Shown: positions 59,759 to 63,009 of the stretch, piece by piece
How the letters are laid out: the number at the start of each line of letters is the position of its first letter
How positions within the stretch are numbered: the stretch's first letter is position 1
Assembly (NCBI RefSeq): GCF_002954445.1
Contig: NZ_MQWA01000001.1
Location: forward strand, 653,148 to 717,147
DNA length: 64,000 bases
Reading direction: 5' to 3'
Origin: Rubritalea profundi
GTDB taxonomy: Bacteria > Verrucomicrobiota > Verrucomicrobiia > Verrucomicrobiales > Akkermansiaceae
The notes under the pieces: model-generated
Told to the model about the DNA's origin: nothing
The model's input: the letters and a program-made list of their open reading frames with translations, nothing else
Databases searched by the model: none
Translations under genes and position numbers: made by a program

Positions 59759-61134
59759 TTAGTCCGTCGGAAAAGCTTTGTGCATTACCCGCTCCATAGC
59801 GGCTGCGCGGCTACCTTTGAATAAGACCGCATCGCCGGTGACACAGGTCGACTGCAACCATTCGGCCGCAGCTTCTACAGTTTCAAAATGAACAGCGGAT
59901 GCTCCAGATTGGGTTGCAGCCACTGAGATGGCTTTGGCTTCCTCGCTAGGGTCATCACCCCTAAACCGCGTTCTGCGGCGAGCGAGCCGATCTCATGGCT
60001 CGCTTGATCTGCGTGTTTGCCCAGCTCAGCCATTCTCCCTAACACCACGTAGCGTTGGGCTGAAGCATCCACTTTTAGCTCTGCTAGCGTCTCGATCGCA
60101 GCCATCATGGATTCCGGGTTGGCATTATAAGTGTCATCAAAGACCGTCACTCCAGCACTCTGGAAAGCACGTAAACGCCCGCTGGTTAGTGTGGCTCTAT
60201 TCAGCCCTGCTGCAATTTCAGTAATCGTCATACCCAAAGTATGACCAGCTGCGGCGGCCAACAGAGCATTGCCAATCATGTGACGCCCTACCACTTGTAG
60301 ATGTACTTTCTCGGACTCTTGGCCATCAATCACGAGAAGGAACTCAGAGCCATTCTTATCCATTCGCAATTCTTCTGCGCGAACCTCACCTCTGCCATTT
60401 CCCACAATCATTCTGCGAGCTCTGCTATGACCCTGGAAGTAATCGACATAATCACATGCAGCGGAAACAATCAGCACGCCATCGGCTGGTAGAGCGCGAG
60501 CCAGTGCACCTTTCTCCTCTGCGATCGCCTGCCTGCTCCCTAAAAATTCAATATGAGCAGTGCCCACATTTGTGATGATCCCTATCCGTGGTTTTGCAAT
60601 CTGGCACAGCGGAGATATTTCGCCAGAGTGGTTCATTCCCATCTCTAGCACACACACCTCATCGTCCTCCTCGGTTGAAAGCACCGTGAGAGGCAAGCCA
60701 ATGTGGTTATTCAGATTTCCTAGTGTTGCGTGCACTTTGAAGCGCTCACCAAGCACAGCCTTTGTGAAATCCTTAGTCGATGTCTTGCCGTTAGATCCAG
60801 TGATAGCTATCACTTCGACATCGAGCTCGCGGATATACCACGCGGCAAATGCTTGCAGGGCGTTCAGAGTGTCTTTCACCACGATAACTGCAGTGTTTCC
60901 AAAGTGGACGCCTGCAGGAACGCGCTCGACCACAATTGCGGAGGCTCCGGCTGCTACTGCTTTTTCTAAAAAATTGTGTGCGTCAAAGTTCTCACCGCTG
61001 AGAGCAAAAAATGCAGATCCGTCCCCGATCGTGCGTGTATCTGTCGACACTGAGGTCACGACACCAGCAGACTCTCCTGAATGGAGTCTACCGTGCACAG
61101 AATTTACGAGTTTTTGGATCGGGGTCGTTTTCAT
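59759..61134 (-). pseudogene. murF: UDP-N-acetylmuramoyl-tripeptide--D-Ala-D-Ala ligase, frameshifted
   Basis: The first frame (61134-59875) has ITGSNGKTSTKDFTKAVL, GTAHIEFLGS, EMGMNHSGEI and DDTYNANPESM, then runs off after GVMTLARKP. The next frame continues as EEAKAISVAATQSGASAVHF and VLFKGSRAAAMERVM, ending TAA at 59759. One extra C (or G on plus) at 59949-59951 joins them as VMTPSEEAKAIS. The total is ~458 residues, the normal length. It adds D-Ala-D-Ala. As this is an essential step, error is likely. Confidence 0.9.
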
Positions 61135-61137
61135 TAC

Positions 61138-63009
61138 TTATTTCTCCTCGTTGTTAGTATCTTTTCTTTTGTCATCAAAACTGCGGCGGTCTCCACCTCT
61201 TGAGTCGCGCCTATCACCACCGCGGAAATCACGACGCTCACCACCACGATCATCTCGTCTGTCTCCGTCTCTGAAATCACGACGCTCACCACCACGATCT
61301 CCACCTCTGGAGTCACGACGATCTCCACCGCGTTTGTCACCTTGCTCGCCTACACGGCGTTCGCCATATTTTTCTGGGCGCTGGTACTCAGGTCTTTCTC
61401 CGTCGCGTCGCTCTGACTTATCACCTGAAAACTTATCGCGCTTGAAGTCACTGGAGTCCTTACGGTCAAAATTGTCGTAGCTACGCTCGCGAGGTTTTTC
61501 TTCCTCATCGAGCTCAGCAACTGGCTTATCTTTGAGCGCCCAACGAGCTACTCTGCGATCGTCGAAGAGAACCTTCTCGTCTGCCAATTCTTGGTAAAGT
61601 TCGTGTCCCTTTCCAGCGATCAGAACAATATCTCCTTTTGATGCCACGTTGACAGCGGTACGGATAGCTTCGTCTCGATCAGGTATCGGCCGATAGGCTT
61701 TGCTCTTCATTCCTGCTTCGATCTGTTTAATGATCGCATCGGGATCTTCAGAACGTGGGTTATCAGATGTAATCAAACAAAGATCACTTATCTCACTCGC
61801 TACTGCAGCCATCAATGGCCGCTTGATTTTATCTCTATCGCCACCACAACCAAATACTGTGATGAGCTTATTAGGCCCCAAGTCTTTCAGAGTTGCACAA
61901 ACATTCTGTAAGGCATCTGGAGTGTGAGCATAGTCAACAAATACGGTAACACCCTCACGGGTTCCTATCAGCTCCATGCGGCCTGGCACCTGTGGAGCCT
62001 CGGCGAGAGCCTTGACTGCATCACGCGGCTTGATCCCCGCAGCAGCAGCTCCAGCGATTGCAGCCAGTGTGTTGTAAACATTGAAGCGCCCGATAAATGG
62101 AGTACGTACCAAGTAGGACTTACCACGGTTATCTAACTGAAATTCTGTACCACGAACTTGTTGCTTAATCTTAGTAACTTTAAAATCACAATGCGCCCCC
62201 ATTCCGTAGGTAACGATGTGGATGGCATCACCGAATTCCTCGCCGAGTTCTTTAACGAGCTTTGCCCCGTAAAGATCATCGCTGTTGATTACTGCGACAG
62301 GTTTCTTCTTACCATCTTGCTGAGGGAGACTCGCAAAAAATGCTTTTTTCACCTCGAAATAAGCAGCCATGGAACCATGGTAGTCGAGGTGGTCTTGTGA
62401 AAAATTAGTAAAGATGGCTGCATCAAACTGCACTGCTGCGATACGCTTTTGCTCAATGCCGTGAGAGCTCACTTCCATAGCTACTCCGCGGCAACCGTTG
62501 CCGACCATTGCTCCGAGTTGACTCTGCAGAATGTCTGCTGATGGAGTGGTGTGCGTCGCCTCTGTACGCTCAACGCCGTCATCCACCGTGATTGTCCCGA
62601 GCAAGCCTGCGCGAGTCCAGCTTTGCTTCATGATGTGCTGAAGCAAGAAAGTCGTCGTTGTCTTACCATTGGTGCCAGTGACACCGACAGTTCGGAGCTG
62701 CGCGGATGGATTGCCAGCAAGAGCGCTAGCAATGGTTGCTAGCGCTACACGCGTGTCATTGCTGTGGATCCAAACGACTTTTTCGCTAGTATCAGCATCA
62801 GGCGCAGCCTCTGCGACAATCGCAACTGCACCCTTCTTGAGGGCTGAGTCGATATATTTATGGCCATCGGATTCTTCACCGCGGATGGCGACAAATACCA
62901 TACCTGGCTTCACCTTGCGGCTATCAGCTGTCACGCCTTTGGCGACATGATCGAGGTTCCCTGAGGCCACGGCCTTCGGAAGGTGGGAAAGTAATTCACG
63001 TAAAATCAT
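61138..63009 (-). CDS. murE: UDP-N-acetylmuramoyl-tripeptide synthetase MurE with Arg/Asp/Gly-rich tail
   Basis: 623 residues, against ~495 for E. coli. Residues 1-495 are MurE: GVTGTNGKTTTTFLLQ, HTTPSADILQSQLG, YAHTPDALQNVC and SDNPRSEDP, the motif DNPR being the marker for meso-DAP specificity. Residues ~496-623 are a tail of charged repeats (KRGGDRRDSRGGDRGG, ERRDFRDGDRRDD) that looks like an RGG-type disordered region. It adds DAP to UDP-MurNAc-L-Ala-D-Glu. It is 3 bases before murF, and overlaps ftsI by 4. Confidence 0.95.
   Translation of the reverse strand: MILRELLSHLPKAVASGNLDHVAKGVTADSRKVKPGMVFVAIRGEESDGHKYIDSALKKGAVAIVAEAAPDADTSEKVVWIHSNDTRVALATIASALAGNPSAQLRTVGVTGTNGKTTTTFLLQHIMKQSWTRAGLLGTITVDDGVERTEATHTTPSADILQSQLGAMVGNGCRGVAMEVSSHGIEQKRIAAVQFDAAIFTNFSQDHLDYHGSMAAYFEVKKAFFASLPQQDGKKKPVAVINSDDLYGAKLVKELGEEFGDAIHIVTYGMGAHCDFKVTKIKQQVRGTEFQLDNRGKSYLVRTPFIGRFNVYNTLAAIAGAAAAGIKPRDAVKALAEAPQVPGRMELIGTREGVTVFVDYAHTPDALQNVCATLKDLGPNKLITVFGCGGDRDKIKRPLMAAVASEISDLCLITSDNPRSEDPDAIIKQIEAGMKSKAYRPIPDRDEAIRTAVNVASKGDIVLIAGKGHELYQELADEKVLFDDRRVARWALKDKPVAELDEEEKPRERSYDNFDRKDSSDFKRDKFSGDKSERRDGERPEYQRPEKYGERRVGEQGDKRGGDRRDSRGGDRGGERRDFRDGDRRDDRGGERRDFRGGDRRDSRGGDRRSFDDKRKDTNNEEK
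61225..61299 (-). repeat. 27-bp direct repeats within the murE tail
   Basis: The 27-base unit starting GAAATCACGACGCTCACC occurs at 61225-61251 and again at 61273-61299, coding the repeat GERRDFR. Further degenerate copies flank it. The tail probably grew by slippage. Confidence 0.7.

Follow-up and report, generated by a model that had tools for sequence, protein, structure and literature searches.

The window, a 64,000-nucleotide stretch of the Rubritalea profundi genome, carries on its minus strand a murE gene (61138..63009) that encodes a 623-residue UDP-MurNAc-L-Ala-D-Glu:meso-DAP ligase with a C-terminal extension. Rubritalea is a generally marine genus. Residues 1-495 (61525..63009, minus strand) make up the folded core. 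The NCBIfam model NF001126 spans residues 2-494 (E 5e-172, 572.7 bits, cut-off 373) and TIGR01085 spans residues 21-492 (527.5 bits, cut-off 257.3); the three Pfam Mur_ligase domains are present, and the final one stops at residue 468. Across 19 aligned MurE proteins the GTNGKT P-loop and the DNPR and KGHE motifs are all invariant, with G112, T113, G115, K116, T117, D416, N417, R419, K467, G468 and E470 as the invariant positions. The AlphaFold2 model is highly confident over residues 1-493 (pLDDT mostly 86-98 to residue 490), and its last core helix is formed by residues 484-493. The MurE fold stops near residue 493-500, and judged by its domains and motifs the ORF is a complete meso-DAP-type MurE with predicted ligase activity. 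The surrounding cluster is of the dcw type: upstream of murE is an ftsI-like gene, and downstream follow murF, mraY, murD, a gene for a LysM protein and ftsW; the names other than murE and murF were assigned by sequence recognition. The enzyme is ordinary, and the novelty lies in its tail.

The tail occupies residues 496-623 (61141..61524, minus strand) and continues in frame from MurE for 128 residues, of which 30 are arginine, 24 aspartate, 18 glycine, 15 glutamate and 10 lysine. Together these five residues account for 97 of the 128 positions, whereas their share of the core is 33% (binomial P ~2e-23). The earlier note had described a 128-residue tail rich in Arg, Asp, Gly and Glu, and its coordinates proved exact. 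In a sample of 339 ORFs covering 464 kb of the genome, the murE C-terminus has by far the highest content of these residues (0.84, with the runner-up at 0.51); its entropy is also the lowest, once ORFs that enter masked N stretches are set aside. The rarity of such tails in the genome is judged from this sample and from pattern searches. A protein search for the tail family elsewhere in the genome matched only murE itself, and a whole-genome search confined the GGDRRD-type DNA pattern to murE. Matches to a looser RGG DNA pattern were mostly noise, and a backwards control scored more.

Within the last 64 residues of the tail lies an octapeptide array of the form RGG[D/E]RRD[S/F] (residues 560-611; 61177..61332, minus strand), with six recognisable units starting at residues 560, 568, 580, 588, 596 and 604. 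The DNA repeats had been given a 27-bp length, but the period is 24 bp, both from the octapeptide units and from TRF, which reports a repeat at 61214-61296. The array is diverged, with 57% matches. A plus-strand ORF that runs across the tail (60560-61480) is a mirror of the repeats and was rejected as a gene.

Disorder is predicted over the full length of the tail. In the AlphaFold2 model pLDDT is below 50 across residues 503-623, with tail values of 32-42, and almost no secondary structure is predicted in the tail, none of it past residue 504. The aligned depth over this region is small, so the low pLDDT fits disorder but alone is no proof of it. Charged residues make up a fraction of 0.62, arginine supplies most of the positive charge (R/(R+K) 0.75), the whole 128-residue tail has a net charge of just +1 (+0.008 per residue), and hydrophobic content is low. 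D and E are interspersed among the arginines, and the charges are mixed better than in 99.9% of shuffles. These properties are those of arginine-enriched mixed-charge domains, and by composition class the tail is such a polyampholyte domain, an assignment that implies no homology.

The junction with murF bears on whether the tail is real. The murE stop codon, TAA, lies at 61138-61140 and is followed after 3 nt by the murF ATG, with its start at 61134; the last tail codons contain GAGGAG (61144..61149, minus strand, in the sequence AACAACGAGGAGAAATAAGTAATG), a putative Shine-Dalgarno of murF. A MurE-MurF fusion was also considered and was rejected, as no single ORF spans the two genes. The murF gene, next in the operon (59875..61134, minus strand), has its frame broken near the 3' end by a frameshift of one base in a homopolymer of four, the G run at 59958-59961, downstream of murE and 1.2 kb from the tail. 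The MurF C-terminal sequence (GDDPSEEAKAISVAATQ...AFPTD) resumes in another frame and extends to about 59760. Since murF frames in relatives are longer, the break probably reflects either an error in the sequence or a defective gene; the homopolymer site and the fact that this is the genome's apparent murF make an error likely, and the frameshift indicates that the assembly is not flawless. This nearby frameshift is what speaks for an artefact, in which an indel would have joined non-coding or out-of-frame DNA to murE, a read-level fusion of the kind that the earlier note had in mind. Against it stand several observations. The motif KYGERRVG, residues 548-555 of the window's protein (61345..61368, minus strand), recurs in the same frame within the 75-residue tail of G010, a sister species in the MurE tree (support 100/99). 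Between the six repeat units, codon positions 1, 2 and 3 differ 35, 25 and 79 times, so third positions account for 79 of the 139 differences. The murE stop lies 3 nt ahead of the murF start with the GAGGAG directly before it, and independent tails occur in many relatives. An artefact is thus most improbable, and the fusion error was rejected. In a clade of five other Rubritalea genomes (G001, G004, G005, G008 and G009; loci L040, L046, L042, L043 and L041), MurF apparently starts at or before the murE stop, so murF may there share DNA with the murE tail, each read in its own frame.

Tails past residue 495 are common in Rubritalea and vary widely in length: 128 residues in the window, and 207, 125, 106, 75, 56, 33, 33, 33, 33, 29 and 8 in the other members. 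The earlier note had raised the prospect of relatives that lack the tail; this is borne out by G006, the closest relative examined by identity (68%), whose 8 residues are essentially no tail, and not by most other members of the genus, which are tailed. The case of G006 shows that MurE in this genus can do without the tail. The repeat arrays are unrelated between species, with RGGDRRD[S/F] in the window's genome (G000), RGSHDSRGPRDS in G003 and an SRRGDSRGND-type unit in G007. Tails of at least 50 residues are found in 6 of the 12 genus members as against 5 of the 73 other family members read, a fraction that is if anything too high because the loci outside the genus were partly picked for long frames. 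These rare and scattered long tails elsewhere in the family have 203 residues in G015, 287 in G027, 120 in G028, 62 in G024 and at least 141 in G249, and the long tails of other genera arose independently. In family f4, to which Verrucomicrobium spinosum probably belongs, the MurE C-termini are charged and mostly ~20-40 residues long. Most MurE matches across the phylum end near residue 490-500, and at the more distant loci with ends read (L180, L185-L198) the protein terminates no more than ~6 residues from 495. Over 27 loci, a C-terminus of this kind occurs in 5 of the 23 recognised MurE ORFs and in none of the 54 neighbouring ORFs.

Several of the tails outside the genus have features of their own. 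Those of G015 and G027 (L082, L083) contain SSGGYKGKSDSSS repeats; the two MurE cores are nearly identical but carry different numbers of units, direct evidence that the array has grown or shrunk. The G028 tail (L056) is largely GRGGRGGRGG, a true RGG type with net positive charge. In G249 (L153, G249:C21; genus g3, probably Akkermansia) the MurE has perfect GGGDRDNNRGGFAGGGERRSF repeats, in an array much younger than that of the window, and the tail is open at the contig end. Another g3 genome, G091 (100% complete, a single contig of 2.7 Mb), has no MurE-level match (best E 2.6e-11), in contrast to nearly all its relatives.

Charge balance is steadier than sequence. The 15 other tails of at least 29 residues that were tested for charge patterning have net charges of +0.03 to +0.16 per residue, and their sequences are unrelated; the G125 and G056 tails, from outside the family, are slightly net-negative. 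Measured against shuffled versions, charge segregation ranks at the very bottom for the window (0.001), G007 (0.000), G003 (0.000) and G009 (0.006); charges in the G028, G015 and G027 tails are not especially well mixed compared with shuffles. Short repeats holding both charges would come out well mixed by construction, so the mixing describes the tail and is no independent proof of selection.

The closest pair with alignable long tails, G015 and G027, gives a tail dN/dS of 0.11 over 202 codons at a dS of 0.61, and 0.036 for the core. The long tail of this pair is under protein-level purifying selection. Short Rubritalea tails have dN/dS of 0.14-0.31, with a high dS in several. Tails of this type are, by these values, translated and under constraint, albeit less tightly than the core is. 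The window's own repeat array has no close relative to align with, so the case for selection there comes solely from the codon differences within the array.

The explanation that we tentatively favour, at a little short of an even chance, is that the tail serves as a flexible tether or as a weak tag for clustering, kept for its bulk charge properties. The main and a serious rival, quite possible though somewhat less likely, is that the tail is tolerated and has no specific function: replication slippage at the 3' end of murE would add nearly neutral in-frame repeats, and a soluble, highly charged disordered extension would do no harm. The extreme turnover in length (8 to 207 residues within the genus), the unrelated repeat units, the near-absence in G006 and the visible change of repeat number between the 203-residue tail of G015 and the 287-residue tail of G027 all favour this rival, and a near-neutral composition could arise simply because hydrophobic or unbalanced tails are purged. 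A dN/dS of 0.11 over a tail of some 200 codons at a dS of 0.6 argues against it, as do the recurrence of tails on MurE and on 0 of 54 neighbouring ORFs, their rarity among the 339 ORFs of the genome, and repeat units that keep their amino acids while their codons diverge.

Two further explanations give the tail a more general or a different role. As a hydrophilic polyampholyte it might keep MurE soluble and active under fluctuating ionic strength, with no specific partners; we consider this unlikely. The high charge fraction, the few hydrophobic residues and the marine habit of Rubritalea are consistent with it, whereas other housekeeping enzymes of the genome are without such tails and the same genus holds a tail-less relative. 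A housekeeping enzyme of Deinococcus that bears low-complexity tails (PMC2904767) provides a bacterial precedent. That the tail is an RNA-binding RGG tail, through which MurE may moonlight on RNA or join RNA condensates, is more doubtful still. This RGG reading, put forward in the earlier note, draws on six RGG motifs and the general RGG/RG precedent, and the tail of G028 is truly RGG-rich and net-positive. In the window, nearly all of the six motifs are directly followed by D or E, and the tail, at net +1, alternates finely between acidic and basic residues. Nearly every Arg or Lys is balanced by an Asp or Glu. In the same genome, the tails of three DEAD-box helicases are strongly net-positive (+0.22 to +0.31 per residue, compared with +0.008) and have few acidic residues, and most relatives' tails are without any RGG. 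In published tests on D/R domains, fine alternation neutralises the charges and weakens binding to neighbours (PMC9324279). The RGG reading is therefore weak, and RNA binding by the tail is the less likely role.

The tether or clustering tag that we favour would have been built by in-frame expansion of short repeats onto an otherwise normal MurE. What is kept would be disorder, high charge content, near-zero net charge and fine mixing, and not the sequence. Because MurE is soluble and substrates are handed between the cytoplasmic Mur enzymes, we infer that the tail is most likely a tether or weak multivalent sticker. It may raise the local concentration of MurE near itself or near charged partners, for example membrane-side machinery or further Mur enzymes; in Bordetella a fused MurE-MurF interacts with MurG (PMC6420597). 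The earlier note had also suggested that the tail could hold Mur enzymes together or respond to charge, and clustering or charge-driven roles of that sort may well apply. The sticker would adjust the position or clustering of MurE in the manner of the C-terminal tail of FtsZ, which is variable but important (PMC9939409). The chemistry of the active site would be expected to remain unchanged, and strong RNA binding would not be expected. The steady charge balance, the purifying selection in relatives and the specificity for MurE favour a tether or tag, and near-neutral D/R domains can join existing condensates, although positive ones join more strongly (PMC9324279). Counting against it are the 8 residues of G006, the slightly net-negative tails of G125 and G056 and the poorer mixing in G028, G015 and G027. 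The behaviour of D/R peptides counts against it as well, since alternating ones showed no autonomous phase separation (PMC9324279).

A broader proposal, which we regard as speculative and rather improbable, is that MurE in Rubritalea and certain relatives uses its fast-evolving polyampholyte tail to arrange the DAP-adding step of the cell-wall pathway in space. The tail would then be similar to arginine-enriched mixed-charge domains, with the bulk charge function conserved while the repeats are repeatedly replaced. If the tail does cluster or tether MurE, it would offer genetics a natural way into the long-standing question of whether the cytoplasmic Mur enzymes form a spatially organised complex. 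The tailed and tail-less species within one genus form a natural experiment. The tail also appears to be a case of a disordered region of a core metabolic enzyme in which the sequence turns over and the charge balance stays steady.

Compared with known MurE proteins (TIGR01085, NF001126), including the characterised DAP ligase of V. spinosum (PMC3681970), the window's protein has the same catalytic core and DNPR motif and occupies the same dcw-cluster slot between an ftsI-like gene and murF. It differs in adding a 128-residue disordered repeat tail that is absent from most of the phylum, and the earlier note was right in calling such a tail non-standard. No description of a MurE C-terminal disordered extension was found in the open-licence literature searched.

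The tail resembles arginine-enriched mixed-charge domains in its R/D dominance, near-zero net charge, high charge fraction and short-period alternation. It differs in being also glycine-rich and in its place on a bacterial metabolic enzyme. The C-terminal linker and tail of FtsZ (PMC9939409) are likewise disordered, variable in length and sequence, and carried on an essential protein of envelope biogenesis, but FtsZ has a conserved C-terminal peptide, whereas the MurE tails have only KYGERRVG in two species and are near-absent in G006. The RGG/RG tails of DEAD-box helicases are also Arg/Gly-rich disordered C-termini, an example in this genome being the basic RGG-rich tail of the L169 helicase (G000:C1, about 616643). 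The helicase Arg-Gly/Lys tails (n=3) are basic, and the MurE tail is neutral because D and E alternate with R. The Bordetella MurE-MurF fusion (PMC6420597) represents a way to hold Mur enzymes together, and MurE and MurF are adjacent in both cases; unlike the fusion, the window's MurE ends in a stop codon before murF begins.
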